Shown piece by piece: positions 45,856-63,297 of a stretch of 64,000 bases of DNA. The position numbers and the translations under genes were made by a program. The first letter of the stretch is position 1, and the number at the start of each line of letters is the position of its first letter. The DNA comes from Mesonia mobilis DSM 19841 (GTDB lineage: Bacteria; Bacteroidota; Bacteroidia; Flavobacteriales; Flavobacteriaceae): assembly GCF_000423405.1 (NCBI RefSeq), contig NZ_AUHX01000004.1, forward strand, positions 248,001 through 312,000, read 5' to 3'. Under the pieces are notes generated by a model. It saw only the letters and a list, made by a program, of their open reading frames with translations. It made no database searches and was not told the DNA's origin.

Positions 45856-45898
45856 TAAAACTAAACGGAGTTGTTTAATGTTATTCTTAGGTCTTGAT

Positions 45899-46011
45899 GC
45901 GTTAGGGATGGAAGCGGCATCCTTTTTTGCTTGATCAAAGACTTCTCGACTCAGCTCGAAGTGACAAGCAAAAAAGATATAGCGTACAGCCCGACCCGTA
46001 GGGTAACGCCC
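45899..46011. repeat. Structured intergenic repeat, copy 1 (113 bp)
   Basis: Conserved shell (GGGCGTTACCCTACGGGTCG... and ...GGATGCCGCTTCCATCCCTAACGC on the minus strand) enclosing a 45-base core with stem TGCTTG/CAAGCA and an inner TTCGAG/CTCGA hairpin. Other copies at 51811-51907 and 59124-59221 keep the shell but have a different core. Confidence 0.75.
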
Positions 46012-47242: not shown

Positions 47243-48469
47243 TTATACTTCTTTTTGCTGAATATGGAAGTGTTTCATCGCTTGCCAAAAGTCCGGAAAA
47301 GATTTTGAAACCACTCCGGCATCTTCAATTTTTAAAGTTGTTTTTAAAGCTAGTGGAGCAAATGCCATCGCCATACGATGATCGTTATACGTGGCTACAG
47401 AGACATTTTCCATTAAATTTACGCAAGGATAAAGTTTTAAGCTATCGTTAGTAATATCTACCCGAGCACCGAATTTCGACATCTCGTCGTGTAAAGCAAC
47501 TAACCGATCGGTTTCTTTGATCTTTAACGTATGTAATCCGGTAAGTTCACAACCTATCCCTAAGCCTAAACAAGTGACTGCAATGGTTTGCGCTAAGTCT
47601 GGAGATGAAACTAAATCTGCTTTATAAACTTGAGGTAATTTAACCGAATGATCTTTTTTAAGCTGAATTGAATTTTCTGAAAAAGTTGTGTTCACCCCTA
47701 AGCTTTTATACAATTCAACTAAAGAAGAGTCGCCTTGAAGACTTTCTTTTTTGTAATTGCTAATCGTAATTTCTGCGGAATCGCTTAATGCGACTAAACT
47801 ATAAAAGTAGGAAGCAGAACTCCAATCTGACTCAACTACAATTTTTTTTGGTTGCTGAAGTTGAAAAGGTTCTATTTTAATATTATTATTCTCGAAGGAA
47901 GCAGTAACACCTAGATTTTTCAGCAGTGAAAGCGTCATTAAAATATAAGGAGTTGAAGTGACTTTACCTTCAAGCTTAATTTCTAGTCCGTTTTCTAAGG
48001 ATGGTGCCATTAACATTAAGGCAGAAATATATTGACTACTAACATTTGCTGCTAAGCTTACATTAGATCTGGTAATTTTTTTTCCGTTGATCAATAATGG
48101 CGGATAGCCTTCTTCTTTTTGGTATTCGATATCGGCGCCTAGACTTCTTAAGGCATCAACTAATAATTTAATTGGGCGCTCTTGCATTCGTTTGCTACCG
48201 GTAAGAATGGTTTTTCGACCTTCTTGAATTGAAAAATAGGCAGTAGAAAAACGCATGGCCGTACCGGCGTGATTAATATCGATCTCTTCTTCTGAAGAAT
48301 TTAAAGCTTTCTGCAAAACTTCTGTATCGTCACTATTAGATAGGTTTTCAATTTCTATCTGCGGAAACAAGGCTTGTAAAATAAGTAAACGGTTAGCTTC
48401 GCTTTTTGAACCGGTTACTTGCCAATCTCCCTTAAGGTTTTTATGTTTTGCGACTAATTCGAGGGTCAT
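47243..48469 (-). CDS. aroA: 3-phosphoshikimate 1-carboxyvinyltransferase (EPSP synthase)
   Basis: A 408-residue enzyme of the shikimate pathway, adding enolpyruvate to shikimate-3-phosphate. Two inverse alpha-beta domains: GSKSEANRLLILQAL near residue 20, NHAGTAMRFSTAYF near 58, SQYISALMLMAPSLENGL near 144, and KIKETDRLVALHDEMSKFGA near 320, NDHRMAMAFAPLALK near 365. Glyphosate-sensitive class cannot be decided here. The start overlaps the upstream membrane protein gene by 4 bases. Confidence 0.95.
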   Translation of the reverse strand: MTLELVAKHKNLKGDWQVTGSKSEANRLLILQALFPQIEIENLSNSDDTEVLQKALNSSEEEIDINHAGTAMRFSTAYFSIQEGRKTILTGSKRMQERPIKLLVDALRSLGADIEYQKEEGYPPLLINGKKITRSNVSLAANVSSQYISALMLMAPSLENGLEIKLEGKVTSTPYILMTLSLLKNLGVTASFENNNIKIEPFQLQQPKKIVVESDWSSASYFYSLVALSDSAEITISNYKKESLQGDSSLVELYKSLGVNTTFSENSIQLKKDHSVKLPQVYKADLVSSPDLAQTIAVTCLGLGIGCELTGLHTLKIKETDRLVALHDEMSKFGARVDITNDSLKLYPCVNLMENVSVATYNDHRMAMAFAPLALKTTLKIEDAGVVSKSFPDFWQAMKHFHIQQKEV

Positions 48470-48729
48470 TGTTTTACTTTTTCTCTTTTCAGTTTTCCTC
48501 TAAATTGAAGAAAAGTTACGACAAAACCATAGATAAAACCACCAATAATATTAGCGATAAGAAATCTGATAAGCATTTTTCCTTCTAATTTTTCAGCAAT
48601 AAATTCATCGAAACTAAATCCGTAAGAGAACAATAAATCGATCGCGTTATAAATAAGCATAAAAGCAAAACCGAGAATAATTACTGATTTCCAAAAACCC
48701 TTAACCTCAACAACTTCTTTAAAACTCAT
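48466..48729 (-). CDS. Small two-helix membrane protein, unknown
   Basis: An 87-residue protein with hydrophobic segments at about 13-32 and 52-72 and a basic C-terminus. I do not recognise it. It overlaps aroA and the MazG gene by 4 bases on each side, so its expression is tied to the rsgA-dtd-mazG-aroA unit. Confidence 0.6.
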   Translation of the reverse strand: MSFKEVVEVKGFWKSVIILGFAFMLIYNAIDLLFSYGFSFDEFIAEKLEGKMLIRFLIANIIGGFIYGFVVTFLQFRGKLKREKVKQ

Positions 48730-49055
48730 GACTTTAGTTTTTCGTTTTGATGATGGCGATCGTGATCTCTTTTTGTTTTTAGATCTAATTTTTTATCGAA
48801 AGCGGCTTGCAAATCGATCCCGGTTTGATTAGCCAAACACAAAACCACAAAAACAACATCGGCTAATTCTTCTCCTAGATCTTTAGCTTTATCGCTTTCT
48901 TTTTCACTTTGTTCGCCATAACGACGAGCAATAATTCTGGCAACTTCGCCTACTTCTTCGGTAAGTTGTGCCATATTGGTAAGCTCGTTAAAATAACGAA
49001 CGCCGTGTTCTTTAATCCAATGATCTACCGCTTTTTGAGCGTCTTGAATGTTCAT
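48726..49055 (-). CDS. MazG-like nucleotide pyrophosphohydrolase
   Basis: A 109-residue all-alpha NTP pyrophosphohydrolase (RS21-C6/MazG-like). Acidic QLTEEVGEVARII near residue 29 and GEELADVVFVVLCLA near 65 give the ExxE...ExxD metal site. C-terminus basic (KRDHDRHH). Probably removes aberrant nucleotides. Lies one base after dtd in a compact unit. Distinct from the MazG-like protein at 351. Confidence 0.85.
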   Translation of the reverse strand: MNIQDAQKAVDHWIKEHGVRYFNELTNMAQLTEEVGEVARIIARRYGEQSEKESDKAKDLGEELADVVFVVLCLANQTGIDLQAAFDKKLDLKTKRDHDRHHQNEKLKS

Positions 49056-49056
49056 T

Positions 49057-49509
49057 TTAATCTCTATTTTTAGAATCTATAATTATCGTTACCGGGCCGT
49101 CGTTAAGGAGATTTACTTTCATATCTGCTCCAAATTCTCCGGTTCCTACTTCTTTTTCAAATTGCTTTTCAAATTCTTTGATAAAAGCTTCGTATAACGG
49201 AATAGCCAAATCAGGTTTGGCTGCATTTATAAAACTTGGTCGATTGCCTTTTTTTGTGCTCGCGTGAAGGGTAAACTGACTTATAATTAATGCTTCGCCA
49301 TCAATATCTTTCAGCGATAAATTCATTTTATCATCTTCATTACCAAAAATTCGCATATTGATAATTTTTCGACAAAGCCATTCGATGTCTTCCTGAGTAT
49401 CTTCAGCTTCAATCCCAACCAGAATCAAAAAACCTTTTTCGATGGAAGATTTTACTTTTCCATCTATCATTACGCTTGCTTCACTTACGCGCTGCAATAC
49501 CACTCTCAT
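49057..49509 (-). CDS. dtd: D-aminoacyl-tRNA deacylase
   Basis: A 150-residue Dtd. MRVVLQRVSEASVMIDG start, LILVGIEAEDTQEDI, the SQFTLHASTKKGNRPSFINAA catalytic SQFTL segment near residue 78, and GAFGADMKVNLLNDGPVT-like C-terminus (here GEFGADMKV, NLLNDGPVT). Hydrolyses D-aminoacyl-tRNAs. 5 bases after rsgA. Confidence 0.95.
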   Translation of the reverse strand: MRVVLQRVSEASVMIDGKVKSSIEKGFLILVGIEAEDTQEDIEWLCRKIINMRIFGNEDDKMNLSLKDIDGEALIISQFTLHASTKKGNRPSFINAAKPDLAIPLYEAFIKEFEKQFEKEVGTGEFGADMKVNLLNDGPVTIIIDSKNRD

Positions 49510-49514
49510 AATTT

Positions 49515-50462
49515 CTATTCTTTATAAATATCTACTCTGTAATGCTCGTCTTCACCTTCTAACATTTGTAAATAAGATTTATATCGCGACCAAGAAATTT
49601 CATCTTCATCTAAAGCTTCTTTAATGGCACATTTCGGTTCTTCGACGTGTAAACAATTATTGAATTTACATTCACTCTTACGCTCAAGAAATTCAGGGAA
49701 ATAATCGCCTAATTCTTCTTTTTCAATTTCTACGATCCCGAAACCTTTAATTCCCGGAGTATCGATAATTCTTGCATGAAAAGAAAGATCGAACATTTCT
49801 GCAAAAGTAGTGGTGTGTTGCCCTTGCAAATGTTGTTCTGATATTGCTGAAGTTTTCAAATCTAAGCTCGGCTCTAATTGATTAATTAAAGTCGATTTTC
49901 CTACACCGCTATGTCCTGAAAAAAGCGAAGTATTATCGATCATCAATTCTTTTACCTTATCGATATTTTTACCCGATTTTGCTGAAATAGGAATACACGT
50001 ATAACCAATTTCTCGATACATCGCCATTAAATACAGGATCTCGTCTTTTTCTTCTTGGGAATAGGCATCTACTTTATTAAAAAGCAAAACGGCTTTAATC
50101 CCATAAGCTTCTGCTGTTACTAAAAAACGATCGATAAAAGTCGTAAAGGTTGGCGGATTATTTAAGGTGACCAATAAAAACGCTACATCGATATTAGCCG
50201 CAATAATATGAGTTTGCTTAGAAAGGTTAACCGATTTTCTAATGATATAATTTTCACGCTCTTCAATATGTTTGATCACGCCTATTACCTCATCAATATT
50301 TTCTTCCAGATCAAATTCTACATAATCTCCTACCGCTACCGGATTGGTGTTTTTAATTCCTTTAATTCTGAATTTACCTTTTATGCGGCAATTGTAGAAC
50401 TTACCATCTTCGGCTTTAACGGTATACCAACTTCCGGTCGATTTGTAGACGATTCCTTTCAT
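49515..50462 (-). CDS. rsgA: Small ribosomal subunit biogenesis GTPase RsgA
   Basis: A 315-residue circularly permuted GTPase: OB-fold (1-65), then G4 LLFNKVDA near residue 130, G5 ISAKSG, G1 SGHSGVGKSTLIN near 187, switch TTFAEMF, G3 DTPGIKGFG near 238, and a C-terminal zinc module with CKFNNCLHVEEPKC near 265. Acts in maturation of the 30S subunit. A terminator-like hairpin occupies its 5' leader. Confidence 0.96.
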   Translation of the reverse strand: MKGIVYKSTGSWYTVKAEDGKFYNCRIKGKFRIKGIKNTNPVAVGDYVEFDLEENIDEVIGVIKHIEERENYIIRKSVNLSKQTHIIAANIDVAFLLVTLNNPPTFTTFIDRFLVTAEAYGIKAVLLFNKVDAYSQEEKDEILYLMAMYREIGYTCIPISAKSGKNIDKVKELMIDNTSLFSGHSGVGKSTLINQLEPSLDLKTSAISEQHLQGQHTTTFAEMFDLSFHARIIDTPGIKGFGIVEIEKEELGDYFPEFLERKSECKFNNCLHVEEPKCAIKEALDEDEISWSRYKSYLQMLEGEDEHYRVDIYKE

Positions 50463-50555: not shown

Positions 50556-51638
50556 TTACTCACTTAAAATTTTCTCTTGGTGATTAATCGATTCTTGGTG
50601 AATGGCTTTAAAGATCTTCAGTATAAATTCTTCACTCAAGTTATGCTCTTTCCCGTCTAAGATCATCTTTCCTAAAATCTCATTCCAACGGGTAGATTGC
50701 AAGATCGCAACGTTTTTCTCTTTTTTCACTTCTCCAATTTCATCGGCAACTTTCATTCGTTTTCCCAGAACGTCTAACAATTGATTATCGATCACATCAA
50801 TTTTAGCACGTAACGATGCTAACTTTTCTTGAAAGTCCTGACTCTGCGAAACTTCTTTTCTAATCTTTAGATCTTTCGTCATTTGGTCTAAAGCTTTCGG
50901 AGTAATTTGCTGTTTGGCATCACTCCACGCATTGTCGGGATCGTAATGCGTTTCAACCATAATTCCGTCGTAGTTAAGATCTAAAGCTGTCTGACATAAA
51001 TCGGTAATAATATCTCTTCTTCCCGCGATGTGTGATGGATCTAAAATTAACGGCAAGTCTGGAAACTTAGTTTGCAGATCGATCGCAATTTGCCATTCTG
51101 GATTGTTTCTGTATTTCGATTTTTCGTAAGTTGAAAATCCTCGGTGAATCACGCCTAAATTCTTTACATCTTGCTTGTAAAAACGCTCTACCGCTCCTAA
51201 CCATAATGCCAAATCTGGATTCACCGGATTTTTAATGAGTACCGTTTTATCTGTTCCTTTCAAAGCTTCTGCGATCTCCTGAATAATAAATGGAGAAACC
51301 GTTGTTCTCGCTCCAATCCATAAAATATCTACATCGTGCTTCAACGCTAAATCTACGTGAATTGGGTTTGCTACTTCAGTCGTCGTTAATAAACCTGTTT
51401 CTTCTTTGGCTTTTTGCAACCACTTTAAACCTAAAGCGCCAACACCTTCAAAATTTCCCGGGCGCGTTCTTGGCTTCCAAATTCCGGCGCGCAACACGCT
51501 GGTATCGGTTTCTTTTAATTGGTGCGCGATCTTTAAAACCTGTTCTTCTGTCTCGGCGCTACAAGGTCCCGCGATCACTAACGGATGGTCCAAATTAAAT
51601 TTATCTAACCACGTTCTTAATTCTTTTTTATTTTCCAT
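50556..51638 (-). CDS. Bifunctional DAHP synthase/chorismate mutase
   Basis: A 360-residue fusion. Residues about 10-260 are a type I-beta DAHP synthase: HPLVIAGPCSAETEEQV near 19, GIWKPRTRPGNFEGVG near 54, LIKNPVNPDL, GFSTYEKSKYRN and ILDPSHIAGRRD near 200. Residues about 270-355 are an AroQ-type chorismate mutase (LRAKIDVIDNQLLDVLGKRM, with the usual Arg/Lys/Glu pattern; ILQSTRWNEIL). The mutase domain is likely the allosteric sensor. Cooperates with pheA and tyrA upstream, though separated by repeats. Confidence 0.93.
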   Translation of the reverse strand: MENKKELRTWLDKFNLDHPLVIAGPCSAETEEQVLKIAHQLKETDTSVLRAGIWKPRTRPGNFEGVGALGLKWLQKAKEETGLLTTTEVANPIHVDLALKHDVDILWIGARTTVSPFIIQEIAEALKGTDKTVLIKNPVNPDLALWLGAVERFYKQDVKNLGVIHRGFSTYEKSKYRNNPEWQIAIDLQTKFPDLPLILDPSHIAGRRDIITDLCQTALDLNYDGIMVETHYDPDNAWSDAKQQITPKALDQMTKDLKIRKEVSQSQDFQEKLASLRAKIDVIDNQLLDVLGKRMKVADEIGEVKKEKNVAILQSTRWNEILGKMILDGKEHNLSEEFILKIFKAIHQESINHQEKILSE

Positions 51639-51810: not shown

Positions 51811-51907
51811 GGGCGTTTCCCTATCGGGTCGGGCTATTCGCTATATCTTTTTCAACTTCCTGCGAAAGCAGGAATCTAAAAAAGGATGCCGCTACTATCC
51901 CTAACGC
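51811..51907. repeat. Structured intergenic repeat, copy 2 (97 bp)
   Basis: Same shell as the copy at 45899 (GGGCGTTTCCCTATCGGGTC...; ...GGATGCCGCTACTATCCC, then TAACGC), with a different core: TTCCTGCGAAAGCAGGAA. Confidence 0.75.
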
Positions 51908-51923
51908 AACATATTTTCTTTAG

Positions 51924-52772
51924 TTAGTTTATTCCGTTTAAAACATTTTTAATATGGTTGGTATTGGCCATTTCTTCATATAATTTTTCAAAATTATCTT
52001 GTTCCATCAGGTTTTTAAATTCATTCAAATTCTGAATATATTCCGTTAACGTCTCCAACACATTTTCTTTATTCTGTTTAAAAATGGGCGACCACATTGC
52101 TGGTGAACTTTTTGCTAAACGTACCGTTGAGGCGAATCCGCTGCCTGCCAAGTCAAAAATATCCTTTTCGTTTTTCTCCTTTTCTAACACGGTTTTTCCT
52201 AACATAAACGAACTGATGTGCGAAAGATGAGAAACATACGCAATATGTTTATCGTGAGATTTCGGATCCATATACCGAATTCGCATTCCCAAACGCTGAA
52301 AAATCTCAAAAGCAACTTCCTGCAACTTGAAAGCTGTTTTTTCAACTTCACAAACGATCATTGTTTTATTTCTGTATAAATTCTGTATTGCCGCTTCCGG
52401 ACCCGAAAACTCGGTTCCCGCAATGGGATGCGCCGCTAAATAATTTCTTCGCTTCGGGTGATCTTTTACCGACTCACATATTTTTTCTTTGGTAGAACCG
52501 GTATCGAGCACCAAGGTATTTTCACCCACGTGATCCAAAACTTGAGCAAGCACTTGTATACTCACATCTACCGGAACCGATACGATCACCACTTCTGCAG
52601 CCTGCAAATCTTTCAACTCTCCAATTGCGTCGATTAGCTGTAAATCTTTCGCTTTTTGGGCATTATTTTCATTTTTATCGATGCCAATAATTTCAACATT
52701 TTCGAAAGCAGTTTTTATATCTAATGCCATCGAACCGCCAATTAAACCTATTCCTACTACTGCTATTTTCAT
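51924..52772 (-). CDS. tyrA: Prephenate dehydrogenase
   Basis: A 282-residue NAD(P)-dependent dehydrogenase of tyrosine biosynthesis. Rossmann VVGIGLIGGSMALDIK at residues 4-19, TGSTKEKICESV near 92, HPIAGTEFSGPEAA near 115, YVSHLSHISSFML near 185, and SGFASTVRLAKSSPAMW near 215. No ACT domain and no fused mutase. Stop codon of the aminotransferase overlaps its start by 4 bases, so translation is coupled. Confidence 0.94.
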   Translation of the reverse strand: MKIAVVGIGLIGGSMALDIKTAFENVEIIGIDKNENNAQKAKDLQLIDAIGELKDLQAAEVVIVSVPVDVSIQVLAQVLDHVGENTLVLDTGSTKEKICESVKDHPKRRNYLAAHPIAGTEFSGPEAAIQNLYRNKTMIVCEVEKTAFKLQEVAFEIFQRLGMRIRYMDPKSHDKHIAYVSHLSHISSFMLGKTVLEKEKNEKDIFDLAGSGFASTVRLAKSSPAMWSPIFKQNKENVLETLTEYIQNLNEFKNLMEQDNFEKLYEEMANTNHIKNVLNGIN

Positions 52773-53920
52773 GCTTCTACTCGTTTTATGGCTTTTTCGA
52801 TCGTGGCTTCATCTACACAAAGAGAAAACCGAATGTAACCTTCACCCCCGCTGCCAAAAACCGTTCCCGGTGCGGCAAACAAATGGTGAGTTTGTAAAAT
52901 ATGTTCAGAAAATTCTTCTGAAGTTTGATAAGCTTCAGGGATTTTTGCCCAAACGAACATCCCTACTAAGTCACGATCTTCTAATTGGCAATCCAGTTTT
53001 TCTACTAATTCGATAATTTTAGTTCTTCGGTTTTTATATAAAAAATCTAAGTTTTTAAACCAATCTTCATTTTCTTTCAACGCAACCGCAACGCCTAACT
53101 GAAGAGGTAAAAACATACCGCTATCCATATTGCTTTTTACCTTTAAAATGTGTTGTAAGTTCTCTTGACTTCCTAAAACCGCTCCTACTCGCCAACCGGC
53201 CATATTAAAAGTTTTACTCACCGAATTGAGTTCTAATCCCACTTCTTTAGCTCCGGGATAGGCCAATAAACTCTCCGGATTGTCATTCAGAATAAAACTA
53301 TACGGGTTATCATTGATCAACAAAATATCGTGCTTTTTAGCAAATGCGATCGCATCATGAAAAAGATGCTGACTCGCTTTTACGCCCGTCGGCATATGAG
53401 GATAGTTGAGCCACATAATTTTCACTTTGCTTAAATCTTGTTTTTCTAACTCGTTAAAATTAGGCTGCCATTCGTTTTCTTCTTTCAACTCATAAAAAAC
53501 CGGTTTTGCGCCCACCAATTTCGTCACTGACGTATACGTAGGATAACCCGGATTCGGAATAAGCACCTCATCACCCTCATTTAAAAACGCCATCGAGATA
53601 TGCATAATCCCTTCTTTGCTTCCTAACAAGGGTAAAATTTCTGTTGCCGCATTAACTTCTACCTGAAATTTTCGTTGGTAGAAATCGGCAAAAGCTTCCC
53701 GCAACTCATCGGCACCACGATAACTTTGATATTTGTGCGCGTTTTCTTGCTTGGCAGCCAATTGCATTTGCGCTACCGCATCGTAAGGCGGCGGCAAATC
53801 TGGACTACCAATTCCTAAATTGATCACGTCTATTCCGTTTTGCTGCATTTCTTTAATTTCTTGCAGCTTTCTACTGAAATAGTATTCCTTGATAAACGCT
53901 AACCTATTGGCGGGTTTCAT
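52769..53920 (-). CDS. PLP-dependent aminotransferase (aspartate/aromatic-type)
   Basis: A 383-residue fold-type I aminotransferase. NLGIGSPDLPPP at residues 34-45, PNPGYPTY near 122, LNYPHMPTG near 171, the PLP-binding lysine K236 in NSVSKTFNMAGWRVG, and RFSLC near the end. Located between pheA and tyrA, it probably transaminates prephenate or the aromatic keto acids; LL-diaminopimelate or aspartate specificity cannot be excluded. Overlaps pheA end by 17 bases and tyrA start by 4. Confidence 0.87.
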   Translation of the reverse strand: MKPANRLAFIKEYYFSRKLQEIKEMQQNGIDVINLGIGSPDLPPPYDAVAQMQLAAKQENAHKYQSYRGADELREAFADFYQRKFQVEVNAATEILPLLGSKEGIMHISMAFLNEGDEVLIPNPGYPTYTSVTKLVGAKPVFYELKEENEWQPNFNELEKQDLSKVKIMWLNYPHMPTGVKASQHLFHDAIAFAKKHDILLINDNPYSFILNDNPESLLAYPGAKEVGLELNSVSKTFNMAGWRVGAVLGSQENLQHILKVKSNMDSGMFLPLQLGVAVALKENEDWFKNLDFLYKNRRTKIIELVEKLDCQLEDRDLVGMFVWAKIPEAYQTSEEFSEHILQTHHLFAAPGTVFGSGGEGYIRFSLCVDEATIEKAIKRVEA

Positions 53921-54740
53921 GGTTTTTATTTTTATAGATTCCTAATATTTTATGCGCTTCAGAAACCTCTTCTAAAGCTTTCATTGCTTCAACAAAAACA
54001 GGGAGCTCTTTAAAGGTTACGTCAATAAAAAATGAATACTTCCAAGGTTCATCGACAATGGGTAACGACTGTATTTTCGTCATATCTAAACCGTAACGAT
54101 CTAGAATTTGCAAGGCTTTTAGTAAACTTCCTTGTTCGTGTTTCAGAATTAACTTTAATGAAGCTTTATCGGCTTGTTCAACTTTTTCGCCCTTTTTCGA
54201 AATGATTAAAAAACGAGTCGTGTTGGTTTGTTCTGAATGTATATTTTGTGCTAACAAATTCAGCTTAAAAATTTCAGCAGCTGTTGCACTTGCGATCGCC
54301 GCTGTATTTTTTAATCCTTGTTCTGCAATTCTTTTGGCTGCTTCTGCCGTGTCATTATCTTCAATTAATTTTATATGCGGGTATTGCTTAAAAAAGTTTT
54401 TGCATTGCAACAACGCGATGGGATGCGAATAAACTTCAGTAATGCTTTCTAAAGTTTCACCAGGTAACGCCATTAAATTCATTTTTACGGGAATGTAATG
54501 CTCACCGACTACTTCTAATTCATATTCATCTACATAGGCATAATTGTGCAAAATTGAACCTGCTGTAGAATTTTCTATCGCCATCACCGCTTTTGTCACC
54601 GATTGCTTAGCAACTTGTTCTGCCAATTCTTTAAAACTGGAACACATCGAAACCTGAACTTGTTCTCCAAAATATTCTCTCGCCACCTGATGATGAAAAG
54701 AACCTTCTATGCCTTGAATTGCAATCACTTCGTTATTCAT
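53904..54740 (-). CDS. pheA: Prephenate dehydratase with ACT domain
   Basis: A 278-residue dehydratase. N-terminal IQGIEGSFHHQVAREYFG (8-25), MAIENSTAGSIL near 73, and TTRFLIISKKGE near 172, then a C-terminal ACT domain with SLKLILKHEQGSLLKALQIL and the KIQSLPIVDEPWKYSFFID phenylalanine-binding pattern (the ESRP-like site reads SLPIVDEPW). Start ATG 54740. A leader peptide and terminator precede it, see those entries. First gene of the aromatic operon. Confidence 0.95.
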   Translation of the reverse strand: MNNEVIAIQGIEGSFHHQVAREYFGEQVQVSMCSSFKELAEQVAKQSVTKAVMAIENSTAGSILHNYAYVDEYELEVVGEHYIPVKMNLMALPGETLESITEVYSHPIALLQCKNFFKQYPHIKLIEDNDTAEAAKRIAEQGLKNTAAIASATAAEIFKLNLLAQNIHSEQTNTTRFLIISKKGEKVEQADKASLKLILKHEQGSLLKALQILDRYGLDMTKIQSLPIVDEPWKYSFFIDVTFKELPVFVEAMKALEEVSEAHKILGIYKNKNHETRQ

Positions 54741-54748
54741 TTTTTATC

Positions 54749-54782
54749 AAAAAAAAATCCCGATAAAAATTTATCGGGATTT
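54749..54782 (-). terminator. Attenuator terminator directly before pheA
   Basis: Minus strand stem AAATCCCGAT/ATCGGGATTT with a short A/T loop followed by nine T, ending 8 bases before the pheA ATG. Its 5' arm UCCCGAU is complementary to GUCGGGA in the leader ORF (54828-54822), so an alternative antiterminator can form. Confidence 0.85.
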
Positions 54783-54810
54783 CAAGTATTACTTTATAAT
54801 GTTGAAGTAT

Positions 54811-54888
54811 TTACATAGCGCTCCCGACTCTATTTCTAATAAAGAAATAAAAGTAAAAATAAGCGTTCCAAGTAAATACGTTTTTCAT
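54811..54888 (-). CDS. Leader peptide of the pheA operon (aromatic-rich attenuator peptide)
   Basis: A 25-codon ORF on the minus strand, ATG at 54888-54886 and TAA at 54813-54811. It encodes M-K-N-V-F-T-W-N-A and then the run YFYFYFF (codons 10-16), followed by IRNRVGSAM. Seven consecutive Tyr/Phe codons, with a further Phe and a Trp just upstream, are the hallmark of a Phe/Tyr-sensing leader like PheL. It is too short to have been called as a gene by length filters. It lies 71 bases before pheA. Scarce charged tRNA-Phe/Tyr would stall the ribosome on the run and free GUCGGGA (codons 20-22) to sequester the terminator. Confidence 0.85.
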   Translation of the reverse strand: MKNVFTWNAYFYFYFFIRNRVGSAM

Positions 54889-54906
54889 CTTGTCTTAAAT
54901 GTTCGA

Positions 54907-54937
54907 CTAAATTATAATTTAATTTTTACAAACAAAA
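54907..54937 (-). promoter_or_regulatory. Candidate promoter of the pheA leader
   Basis: Minus strand TTTTG at 54937-54933, 18 bases, then TAATTTAG (one mismatch to TAnnTTTG) at 54914-54907; the leader ORF begins 19 bases downstream. Confidence 0.5.
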
Positions 54938-59123: not shown

Positions 59124-59221
59124 GGACGCATCCCTATCGGGTCGGGCTATTCGCTATATCTTTTTCAACTTCCTGCGAAGGCAGGAATCTAAAAAAGGAT
59201 GCCGCTGCTATCCCTTGCGCT
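59124..59221. repeat. Structured intergenic repeat, copy 3 (98 bp)
   Basis: Shell GGACGCATCCCTATCGGGTCG... and ...GGATGCCGCTGCTATCCC; core TTCCTGCGAAGGCAGGAA. Almost the same as the copy at 51811, with a changed outer end. Confidence 0.75.
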
Positions 59222-59300
59222 TTTCTAAATCGTCATCCCGGACGTGATCCAAGGATCTCATCCTTTTTTAAATTTAAATTTCTCACTAATGCTCTAGATG

Positions 59301-59346: not shown

Positions 59347-62085
59347 CTAAGCCAAATTCGGGCTTAACCATTTTTCAGCTTCTTGATAAGTGATTCCTTT
59401 TCGTTTCGCAAAATCTTCTACCTGATCGGGTTTTACTTTTCCTAATCCAAAATAGCGAGCTTCAGGATGCGCAAAATAATAACCGCTCACACTCGCTGCC
59501 GGCCACATCGCTAAACTTTCGGTAAGCTTTACACCAATGTTTTCTTCCACGCTCAGCAGTTTCCAAATGCTCAATTTTTCTAAATGATCGGGACATGCAG
59601 GATAGCCCGGTGCGGGACGAATACCTTTGTACGATTCTTTGATCAATTCAGCATTCGACAGATTTTCGTCTTTTGCGTAACCCCAATTTTGTGTACGGAC
59701 TTGCCAATGCAGATATTCTGCAAAAGCTTCTGCCAAACGATCGGCCAACGCTTTTACCATAATCGAATTGTAATCGTCTAAATTCTTTTCAAATTCATTC
59801 GCTAATTCTTGAGTTCCGAAGCCGGTGGTTACACAAAAACATCCGATATAATCTTGAATTTCAGTTTCTTTTGGCGCTATAAAATCGGCTAGCGCAAAAT
59901 TAGGTTTGCCTTTGTATTTTTTGAGCTGTTGTCGCAGCGTTCTAAACCGAATAATTTCTGCTGAAGTTTCAGGATCTTGAACTGAAATATCGTCGTCTTC
60001 TACTGTATTTGCCGGGAACAAACCAAAGACTGCTTTCGCTTTTAATTGTTGCTGCTGAATAATTTCTGTAAGCATTTTTTCAGCATCTTCAAATAAATTG
60101 GTGGCTTGTTGACCAACGACCTCATCTTCTAAAATCTCCGGAAATTTTCCGTGAAGATCCCAGCTTCTAAAAAAAGGCGTCCAATCGATAAACTCCTTCA
60201 ATTTGTTCAACTCGAAATCTTCAATCACTTGAACACCTAATTGATGAGGTTGAATAATATCTTCAGCTTTCCAATCAATTTGAAATTTGTTTTCTCGAGC
60301 TTCAGCAATCGTTAAATATTCTTTCTTTTTAGTTCGGCTTAGAAACTTCTCCCTGAATTCAGCATAATCAAGTTTTAGATCGGTTTTATATTTTGTCGCG
60401 GTTTCTTTTTGCAGTAAATTCCCTACCACAGTTACGGCACGAGAAGCATCGTTTACGTGAACGACTGCGTGCTGATATTCTGCATCGATTTTCACCGCCG
60501 TATGTGCTTTTGAGGTTGTCGCGCCACCAATTAACAAAGGAACTTCAAAATCTTGGCGCTGCATTTCTTTGGCAAGAAAAACCATCTCGTCTAATGAAGG
60601 CGTGATCAATCCGCTTAAACCTATAATATCGACTTGTTGGTCTTTGGCTTCAGCTATGATTTTTTCCGGCGGAACCATAACTCCTAAATCGATAATTTCA
60701 TAATTATTACAAGCGAGAACCACGCTTACAATATTTTTCCCGATATCGTGTACATCGCCTTTTACGGTCGCCATCAAAATTTTCCCGGCACCACTTTTTT
60801 CATCTTCAGAAGGCGGATTTTTCAATTTTTCTTCTTCAATATAAGGTAATAAATAGGCAACGGCTTTTTTCATTACTCGAGCAGATTTCACCACTTGCGG
60901 AAGGAACATTTTTCCGCTTCCGAAGAGATCTCCTACGACATTCATTCCCGTCATTAAATGACCTTCGATCACTTGAATCGGCTTTTCTGATTGCTGCCGA
61001 GCTTCTTCAACATCTTCTAAAATATAGGTGTCGATCCCTTTAACTAAAGCACGTGTGATTCGGTCTTGCAAAGCCTCTTCTCGCCAAGACAGATCGACCT
61101 TATTTTTTTCTGACTTATTATTTTTTACCGTTTCTGCAAACTCCAATAAACGTTCTGTAGAATCATCGCGACGGTCGAGCATCACATCTTCCACGTGTTC
61201 TAATAAATCTTTAGGAATATCGTCGTAAACCTGTAGCATTGTTGGGTTCACGATACCGATATTCATCCCGGCTTGGATGGCGTGGTATAAAAATACCGAA
61301 TGCATTGCTTCCCGAACAGTATTATTCCCGCGGAAAGAAAAAGAAATATTACTCACGCCGCCGCTGACGCTCACATACGGAAGATTTTCTTTTACCCAAC
61401 GCGTAGCTTCAATAAAATCGATCGCATTTTTTCGGTGTTCATCCATTCCCGTTGCGACCGGAAAAATGTTTAGATCGAAGATGATATCTTCCGGAGGGAA
61501 GTTCACTTTTTTCACCAATAGATCGTAAGATCGTTGTGCAATTTCGATGCGACGGTCATAATTATCGGCTTGCCCAACTTCATCAAAAGCCATCACAATT
61601 ACCGCAGCTCCGTAACGTTTGATCTTCTTGGCGTGAAGTAAAAACTCTTCTTCACCTTCTTTTAGCGAAATTGAATTCACCACACATTTTCCTTGAACTA
61701 CTTGCAAACCGGCTTCGATAATTTCCCATTTAGAGCTATCGATCATGATCGGCACACGAGAAATATCGGGTTCTGAAACGATTAAATTTAAAAAATTTAC
61801 CATCGCTTCTTTCCCATCGATCAGACCATCGTCCATATTTATATCGATAATCTGTGCGCCACCTTCTACCTGATCGCGGGCGATGGCTAAAGCTTCATCG
61901 AACTTTTCTTCTTTAATGAGTCTTAGAAATTTTCGGGAACCCGCTACATTGGTTCGCTCACCGACATTCACAAAATTACTTTCGGGAGTGATGACCAAAG
62001 GTTCTAAACCGGATAGTTTTAGCGGACGAAAATTTGAGTCAGTTTCAGTATTATGCTTATGTTCTATCGCTGTAGATAAATTCAT
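59347..62085 (-). CDS. metH: Methionine synthase, folate/cobalamin/activation part (split MetH)
   Basis: A 912-residue protein: pterin-binding barrel (about 30-310, with [15 protein letters not shown] and [12 protein letters not shown]), cap and cobalamin domain (about 350-590, HDIGKNIV near 455 carries the B12-binding His), and the AdoMet reactivation domain (about 640-912, with [12 protein letters not shown] and the last 200 residues). The homocysteine-binding domain is missing and encoded by the next gene upstream. The two proteins must work together. 7 bases separate them. Confidence 0.94.
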
Positions 62086-62092
62086 TTTTGTA

Positions 62093-63100
62093 TTAAATTA
62101 ATTGTGGAGCTTCCAATTTTCTTGGGGAATACTTGGCTGCTACGTTTGCAATAGCTTTGATATGCTCTGGCGTGGTTCCGCAGCAACCGCCAATAATATT
62201 CACTAAATTCTTCTGAAGATATTCTTCGATCTGGCTTGCCATTTCTTTGGGCGTTTCATCGTATTCTCCAAAAGCATTTGGCAATCCGGCATTGGGATAA
62301 GCGGAAACGCCTGCCGAAGTTCTGTTGGCTAAAACTTCTAAATGTGGCGTGAGTTGTTTGGCACCTAACGCACAATTAAATCCAACACTTAACAACGGAA
62401 TATGCGATACGGAGATTAAAAAAGCTTCAGCGGTTTGCCCAGATAAAGTTCTACCGGAAGCATCGGTGATCGTACCGCTCAACATCACCGGAATATCGAT
62501 TTGTTGTTCTTCTTTAATTTCTTCAATTGCAAAAAGGGCAGCTTTGGCGTTGAGCGTATCAAAAACCGTTTCGACTAATAAAATATCGACTCCGCCTTTT
62601 AATAAAGCTAATGCTTGTTGTTTGTAAGCTATGCGTAATTCATCAAAAGAAATCGCTCGAAAACCGGGATTATTTACATCTGGAGAAATGCTGGCAGTTT
62701 TATTGGTTGGTCCCATCGCACCGGCAACAAAACGTGGTTTTTCAGGATTTTCTAAAGTCACTTTCTGAGCGACTTCTTTGGCAATTCTAGCCGACTCATA
62801 ATTGAGTTCATCGACCAGATGTTCCATTTTGTAATCGGCCATCGCAATGGTGGTGCCGGAGAACGTATTGGTTTCAACAATATCGGCGCCGGCTTCAAAA
62901 TATTTTTTATGTACTTCTGCAATCGCTTTGGGTTGCGTTAAGGACAAGAGATCATTATTTCCCTTCACGGGAATCTCCCAATTTTTAAAACGTTCTCCCT
63001 GAAAATCTTCTTCAGAAAATTGATAGCGTTGTAGCATTGTGCCCATTGCGCCATCGAGAACCAATATTTTTTGCGTTAATAATTCCTTTAATTTACTCAT
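62093..63100 (-). CDS. metH: Homocysteine S-methyltransferase subunit of split MetH
   Basis: A 335-residue barrel corresponding to MetH domain 1. [12 protein letters not shown] at residues 15-26, [12 protein letters not shown] near 76, [14 protein letters not shown] near 236 (first Zn Cys) and [15 protein letters not shown] near 300 (Zn Cys pair). Accepts methyl from methylcobalamin on the partner. Transcribed behind a SAM-I riboswitch. Confidence 0.95.
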
Positions 63101-63122: not shown

Positions 63123-63266
63123 CAAAAAAAGGAACAGAAGGAAAGAATTCTGTATGGGTTATCTATCTGCTTTTGCAGTAGAATGTAGCACCTTCTCCTT
63201 CTGTTTTCACAGAAAAAGGGTTGCTAAGGCTTCATTGGGTCTAGTCCCTCTGCCTTTCTTGATAAC
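63123..63266 (-). promoter_or_regulatory. SAM-I (S-box) riboswitch and terminator before metH
   Basis: Minus strand 63266-63158 shows the SAM-I core: P1 GTTATC/GATAAC, AGAGGGACTAGACCC, ATGAAGCCTTAGCAACCC, GGTGCTACATTC, and the closing GATAGATAAC. Then ACAGAA/TTCTGT followed by CCTTTTTTT (63153-63123) forms a terminator-like platform. High SAM should stop transcription of the metH genes. The start codon is 23 bases further. Confidence 0.93.
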
Positions 63267-63297
63267 TTATTTCAATTTAAATATGAACTTGCGCTTA

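Follow-up and report, generated by a model that had tools for sequence, protein, structure and literature searches.

A probable ribosome-mediated Phe/Tyr attenuator upstream of pheA in Mesonia mobilis and its counterparts across Bacteroidota

In Escherichia coli, pheA is preceded by pheL, which encodes a Phe-rich leader peptide, by a terminator directly before the gene, and by an antiterminator that is mutually exclusive with this terminator. Attenuators of the trpL type are built from three alternating helices, namely the protector, the antiterminator and the terminator. The leader upstream of pheA in Mesonia mobilis that we describe here shares this three-helix plan with the trpL-type attenuators, with different codons and genes, and the Bacteroidota leaders as a whole have the same leader, terminator and antiterminator layout as the E. 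coli pheL–pheA element (RF01859). In the pheL region of E. coli MG1655, the motif GGGAGGC, which is complementary to the terminator arm, can be recognized by eye 8 nt past the last Phe codon; this spacing is inside the range of the Bacteroidota leaders and thus points to a like layout. There are differences from pheL: the Bacteroidota leaders use Tyr codons besides Phe codons, 128 of 129 of them have no Shine-Dalgarno-like motif ahead of the leader start, and the prephenate dehydratase of the M. mobilis locus is a stand-alone enzyme encoded in a unit with tyrA. The Rfam models of the E. coli elements scored below their cut-offs on the M. mobilis leader (Phe_leader RF01859, 16.7 bits against a cut-off of 55; Trp_leader RF00513, 17.9 bits against 41), and below unrelated families such as Spot_42 and MicC.

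Prior literature anticipates this element in part. A 2010 survey (PMC2965389) states, in its accessible portion, that its authors knew of no demonstrated leader-peptide system beyond Proteobacteria and Actinobacteria prior to their own Firmicutes case, the atypical ermC leader excepted. A 2021 study of Flavobacterium psychrophilum (PMC9723704) reports, in the text accessible to us, strong indications that leader peptides attenuate amino acid operons from upstream, together with a 5' element of pheA that is present in other Flavobacteriaceae genera and has no Rfam match. That element concerns the same gene in the same family; in the accessible text of the article, we saw no anatomy, covariation, spacing or spread past Flavobacteriaceae. 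The preliminary description of the M. mobilis locus had left open whether such an attenuator had been described for pheA of Bacteroidota: it had been outlined for F. psychrophilum, and as far as the accessible text goes in outline only. Our literature search, with most subscription papers outside its scope, found no fuller description of a Bacteroidota pheA attenuator. The principle is textbook knowledge and the reach across the phylum was only hinted at before; what is new here is the anatomy, the covariation, the ribosome-length spacing and the spread over 23 families.

The window, i.e., the whole stretch of 64,000 nucleotides that we analyzed and to which all positions below refer, carries on its minus strand three overlapping genes: pheA for prephenate dehydratase (53904..54740; PF00800, E = 7.8e-58), a gene for a class I/II aminotransferase (52769..53920; PF00155; 17-nt overlap with pheA), and tyrA for prephenate dehydrogenase (51924..52772; PF02153 and PF20463, with NF006307 over its cut-off; 4-nt overlap with the aminotransferase gene). 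On the same strand, a gene for a DAHP synthase fused to a chorismate mutase (50556..51638, minus strand; PF00793 and PF01817) follows tyrA after a gap of 285 nt and may or may not be co-transcribed with the pheA unit. Three Flavo-1 RNAs (RF01705) lie in the window, one between tyrA and this fusion gene (51823–51912) and two elsewhere (45891–46000 and 59136–59230). The region 3' of the aromatic genes (47243–50462, minus strand) encodes in order rsgA, a D-Tyr-tRNA deacylase, a MazG-type protein, a small protein without a Pfam match, and aroA; the adjacency of the deacylase gene to Tyr synthesis genes may be meaningful. Further off, a SAM riboswitch (63156–63268, minus strand; 74.7 bits) lies directly upstream of an ORF (62093–63100), next after which comes the gene for a B12-dependent methionine synthase (59347–62085). 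The leader itself is preceded by a candidate promoter (54907..54936, minus strand) with TTTG (54936–54933), 18 nt, and TAatTTAG (54914–54907), which resembles the Bacteroidota consensus, TTTG/TAnnTTTG; by eye, the downstream promoter-like box is also present before the leader in near relatives. A transcription start between the terminator and pheA, which the preliminary description had named as a finding against the attenuator, would have to fall within a gap of only 8 nt.

Four RNA segments and a short ORF make up the leader, all on the minus strand. The ORF (54811..54888), as had been claimed from its translation, encodes MKNVFTWNAYFYFYFFIRNRVGSAM in 25 codons plus a stop, and its run YFYFYFF comprises seven consecutive Tyr/Phe codons (54841..54861), which are the putative regulatory codons. 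Segment 1, found by folding, is the 5' half of a protector hairpin within the leader codons (54861..54879; GTATTTACTTGGAACGCTT). Segment 2, GUCGGGA (54822..54828), is the 5' half of the antiterminator and starts 12 nt past the last aromatic codon. Segments 3 and 4 form the terminator hairpin (54754..54783; 13 pairs, loop of 4 nt) that was recovered by an intrinsic-terminator scan, with a U tract behind it whose last part (54749..54753) stops 8 nt before the pheA ATG at 54740; this agrees with the preliminary description, which had placed an intrinsic terminator 8 bases before that ATG. The 7-bp pairing of GUCGGGA with segment 3 (UCCCGAU, the terminator 5' arm) is likewise present as described, with one G-U pair, at −11.9 kcal/mol. 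As segment 3 is common to the terminator and the antiterminator, the two pairings are mutually exclusive. The 3' half of the protector (GAGCGCTATGTAAATAC; 54807..54823) consists of the end of the leader ORF, its stop codon and 4 nt beyond, overlapping the last two bases of segment 2; in the window, GTATTTACTTGGAACGCTT and GAGCGCTATGTAAATAC form 16 pairs at −14.0 kcal/mol. This helix had been absent from the preliminary description, and with it the leader has all the helices of a classical attenuator.

Based on this anatomy and its conservation, a ribosome-mediated transcription attenuator of the E. coli pheL/trpL type very probably precedes pheA, and leader and RNA switch together would most likely allow the operon to be transcribed only when Phe or Tyr runs short. 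RNA polymerase would transcribe the leader while a ribosome translates the leader ORF. A shortage of charged tRNA-Phe or tRNA-Tyr would stall the ribosome in the aromatic run; lying on or beside segment 1, the ribosome would open the protector, with its front edge just short of segment 2. Segment 2 would then pair with segment 3, no terminator would form, and pheA, the aminotransferase gene and tyrA would be transcribed. With both tRNAs in charged form, translation would proceed until the ribosome could reach the stop codon and cover segment 2, leaving segments 3 and 4 to form the terminator. When the leader is untranslated, segment 2 should stay sequestered in the 1:2 protector, with termination as the expected result. 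In this scheme, transcription from the leader promoter, the stalling, the signalling role of charged tRNA and the effect size are inferred.

We then surveyed the regions upstream of pheA in 160 genomes (each, as far as we could judge, represented by one region), counting as a leader an ORF with an ATG start and at least five Phe, Tyr or Trp residues in eight codons. A leader was found in 131 of the 160, in every case with a terminator behind it and before the first gene, compared to 45 of 800 dinucleotide-preserving shuffles (five per region) with a leader and 5 of 800 with both. Leader plus terminator occur in 104 of 105 regions from the window's family (f1), a set that leans to close relatives (93 of the 178 genomes with a match, mostly top-scoring). 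Outside it, they occur in 11 of 22 regions from other families of the order (22 sampled of 34 genomes with a match), 13 of 16 from other families of the class (16 of 16) and 3 of 17 from other classes of the phylum (17 of 95). A second set of 20 further regions (of 25) from other families of the class yielded leader and terminator in 13, with a spacing of 7–15 nt. The 23 numbered families with leaders comprise five of the order (f1, f34, f35, f40, f46), 15 of the class (f3, f4, f5, f8, f9, f48, f49, f52, f58, f60, f71, f72, f75, f81, f90) and three outside the class (f14, f17, f26); the attenuator is thus not confined to Flavobacteriaceae, where it had been placed at the outset. The counts cover genomes with a recognizable PheA; 21 of 199 genomes lacked one in the search of the family, and 105 of 148 in that of the class. 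Also left out of the 160 were L001–L004 (duplicates of L008–L011), L006 (Planctomycetota, 32% identity), and L103, L105, L107 and L108, three of which are repeat genomes, with L107 (genome G141) not a repeat.

The 29 of 160 pheA genes that have no leader directly upstream include all six of family f2, whose PheA proteins are distant (E = 1e-21 to 1e-33 with two queries). They further include all three that we examined of family f47, with reduced genomes of about 0.6 Mb, none of which has a leader by our definition; in one of them (L163), a Phe-rich ORF begins with TTG. Searches of 13 kb upstream of pheA in L082 (from f1), L129 and L162, and of 4 kb in L154, yielded no aromatic leader followed by a terminator. 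In L111 and L115, pheA lies inside an operon behind aroB and aroA, and a leader, a terminator and an antiterminator pairing are found about 3.6 kb above, before the gene for the DAHP synthase-chorismate mutase fusion (gene order: fusion gene, aroB, aroA, pheA); the spacing of this leader is 12 nt, and its antiterminator core has 8 bp. Its position at the apparent head of the operon indicates that the switch goes with the operon rather than with pheA as such. Upstream of pheA, two aromatic leaders stand in tandem in two genomes that belong to other families of the class (L178 and L179, the regions of L119 and L128), each with a terminator and an antiterminator-like pairing; the second leader of L179 was missed by a stricter scan. 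L119 and L128 are omitted from the analyses of 129 leaders given below. Within the window's genus, PF00800 is without a match in 10 of 16 genomes (completeness at least 90% throughout), which suggests a loss of Phe synthesis.

The terminator helix shows clear compensatory change. After thinning, 85 of the 129 leaders were aligned with MAFFT, and this alignment was used for the terminator helix only, with segment 2 being one column out of register between groups. In it, 95.6% of the helix is paired, with 82 two-sided changes compared to 17.3 after shuffling, a count that none of 500 shuffles reaches. Equilibrium folds of the whole leader are dominated by the terminator in 125 of 129 cases.

For the antiterminator, we compared each segment 2 with its own segment 3 and with those of other genomes, locating segment 2 by pairing. 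The mean duplex energy is −12.9 kcal/mol with the own arm, −9.1 kcal/mol with arms swapped between genomes, and −5.9 kcal/mol with segment 2 shuffled; the own arm is on average stronger than 81% of swapped arms. The 129 leaders contain 77 distinct core helices, likewise located by pairing, that are 92% Watson-Crick. The own arm type is the strongest partner in six of seven types, with UUCCG pairing slightly better with the arms of another type. In a repeat test, segment 2 was aligned without regard to pairing and a single offset common to all rows was picked for highest pairing. Here, 82% of 661 cells are paired, compared to 75% (maximum 77%) in shuffled and at most 49% in slid controls, with 60 two-sided changes against a shuffled mean of 20 and a maximum of 29 in 500. 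Since the sequences are related, this shuffle count is no probability; the slid controls preserve the relatedness. Nine alignment settings all gave 81–82% pairing and 55–60 two-sided changes, the best-pairing one being that taken to the shuffle test; of the eight positions tested, one lacks pairing in most cases (47 of 74). Inside two tight groups, two-sided change was seen in 1 of 8 and 0 of 8 pairs, neither above shuffles, because the helix hardly varies there; the alignment of the 17-row group has segment 3 one column off in three rows, which lowers its antiterminator counts. Thus, the expectation that the aromatic run and the pairing would be kept in relatives with covarying stems is borne out across the sampled regions, with the compensatory changes falling between groups.

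From the last aromatic codon to the first paired base of segment 2, the median spacing is 10 nt (12 in the window), and 94 of 131 leaders fall within 9–12 nt, compared to 8% with segment 2 shuffled; these counts include L128, with a value of 162 nt that is mis-assigned owing to its tandem leaders. A bacterial ribosome with a codon in its A site covers about 9–10 nt further, as seen in toeprints. Segment 2 hence starts at about the place where the front edge of a stalled ribosome should fall. The stop codon comes a median of 16 nt past the point where segment 2 begins (5–95% range, 22 after to 2 before), and therefore a ribosome at the stop should cover segment 2. In a few leaders (L016, L032, L046 and that of family f46), the stop just precedes segment 2, and the front of the ribosome would still cover it. 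The geometry proposed at the outset from the window's leader alone, in which a stall frees segment 2 and a ribosome at the stop covers it, is therefore upheld by the spacing across genomes.

The codon counts favor a coding run. The eight-residue windows of the 131 leaders contain 557 Phe, 279 Tyr and 1 Leu, and among the codons of the run (last eight, 129 leaders) we counted 373 TTT, 176 TTC, 195 TAT and 78 TAC, and no TTA or TTG. TTA and TTG would be expected if the RNA were simply rich in U. Their absence supports, without proving, a coding run, the windows having been picked for aromatic density. The motifs GGAG, GAGG or AGGA precede the leader start in 1 of 129 leaders, and 95 of 129 have an A at position −3, the place concerned in the Kozak-like starts of Flavobacterium johnsoniae. 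The leader starts are in line with these Kozak-like starts as reported in the accessible part of PMC6847099.

The protector is well supported by pairing and position, and modestly by covariation. One comparison had spoken against any protector, with the duplexed part of segment 2 pairing with upstream RNA at −6.7 kcal/mol versus −5.9 kcal/mol for shuffles; this view was overturned by the fold of the window's leader, in which the bases flanking segment 2 on its 3' side take part in the protector. Across 129 leaders, the protector pairing averages −12.8 kcal/mol with the own partner, −9.3 kcal/mol with swapped and −9.2 kcal/mol with shuffled partners, the own partner being better than 78% of swaps. 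We examined alignments of two groups more closely, taking 46 of 49 listed leaders of the Flavobacterium type and 17 of 24 of the other group. In the former, 90% of the protector cells are paired (slid, at most 56%), the covariation score is 0.109 compared to 0.089 shuffled (0 of 500), and there are 11 two-sided cells compared to 4.4 shuffled, a number that sliding by +3 also gives. These three of five measures exceed all 500 shuffles; the pairs with two-sided change (124 of 500) and the pair types (302 of 500) are not above shuffles. In the 17-leader group, 91% of the cells are paired (slid, at most 59%), and no protector measure is clearly above shuffles.

Since the protector encloses segment 2, the antiterminator should be harder to form on RNA that carries no ribosome. 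When the ribosome-free RNA is folded as far as the 3' end of segment 3, the 2:3 pairing prevails in 80 of 129 leaders and the core of segment 2 pairs with upstream RNA in 36 of 129; termination in the absence of translation is thus doubtful for part of the 129. The attenuator reading of the preliminary description stands on features that sequence comparison establishes, namely the leader, the terminator, the alternative pairings, the covariation, the spacing and the association with the operon; what it had overlooked is the protector, with which untranslated RNA should tend to terminate.

The protector can also explain why codons outside the run, in many leaders one for Trp among them, are kept. 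The window's leader has a Trp codon ahead of its run, and altogether 80 of 131 leaders contain Trp, which would fit an attenuator that also answers tryptophan. We consider such a response unlikely: 51 of 131 leaders lack Trp, and the Trp codon of the window's leader, like that of the FWNGF group, is within the protector stem. At its column in 17 leaders, we found four GC, four UA, one CG and one UG pair and seven unpaired cases, with the opposite strand changing in part. Because this strand partly changes where Tyr or Phe codons replace Trp, the Trp codon may serve the RNA, and may thus be kept for its pairing.

Far less probable still is a TnaC-like mechanism in which the nascent leader peptide senses free Phe or Tyr and thereby stalls the ribosome, as opposed to a stall for want of charged tRNA. 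The leader peptides are indeed similar inside groups, and C-terminal residues such as ETLYV, GLL and GSAM recur. However, the aromatic run is the only peptide feature that we saw shared across families, its length, order and residue (Phe or Tyr) vary among leaders, and the recurring ends are explicable at the RNA level by the pairing of segment 2 and the protector. It is even harder to credit that the terminator merely ends a small RNA or small-protein gene, with pheA on its own promoter and no switch. A lone terminator-like match is not significant by itself, as shuffled sequence yields such hairpins just as often (7 in 10 kb of this region compared to 8.4 expected). Nevertheless, the terminator is only 8 nt from pheA, its arm covaries with both segment 4 and segment 2, and the unit stands at the operon head in the two rearranged operons. 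Finally, while aromatic operons elsewhere use T-boxes, a T-box or riboswitch (a tRNA- or metabolite-binding RNA) with a fortuitous ORF is the most improbable of all, given that no Rfam family reaches its gathering score here, that there is no T-box among 26 weak matches, and that the conserved parts found are codons and three helices.

A comparable arrangement with other codons occurs in the window's genome. A scan for His codon patterns gave 33 matches compared to 6 for the reversed pattern and led to a His-rich leader on the minus strand of contig 1 (L204; near 519970). It lies directly before hisG (PF01634) and has a short ORF, MRQINLHHHHIHFHAQAR, a terminator and an antiterminator-like pairing of −14.7 kcal/mol; a hisD-like gene, as read from the sequence, follows hisG. 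It differs from the pheA leader in having His instead of aromatic codons, and was examined in this one genome. The corresponding scan for aromatic runs gave 71 matches compared to 86 for the reversed pattern and was thus uninformative; 10 of the 33 His and 20 of the 71 aromatic places were scanned further.

Returning to the pheA attenuator, we think it rather probable, if far from settled, that it is an ancient, mostly vertically kept Phe/Tyr device of the class Bacteroidia that implies coupling of transcription and translation and whose spacing reads the front edge of the ribosome. If so, the leader would be under three overlapping constraints, from its codons, its protector and its antiterminator. 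RNA polymerase and ribosome would be closely coupled in a group whose ribosomes ignore Shine-Dalgarno sequences, the segment spacing would read out the front edge of the ribosome in these bacteria, and the tandem copies would be two-stage versions. More immediately, what had been a brief transcriptome remark becomes a defined element with its codons, three helices, spacing, operons and families, offering a regulatory handle on Phe and Tyr synthesis in an abundant environmental phylum. As such an attenuator works only if ribosome and polymerase keep step, it also makes transcription-translation coupling in Bacteroidota testable in vivo.
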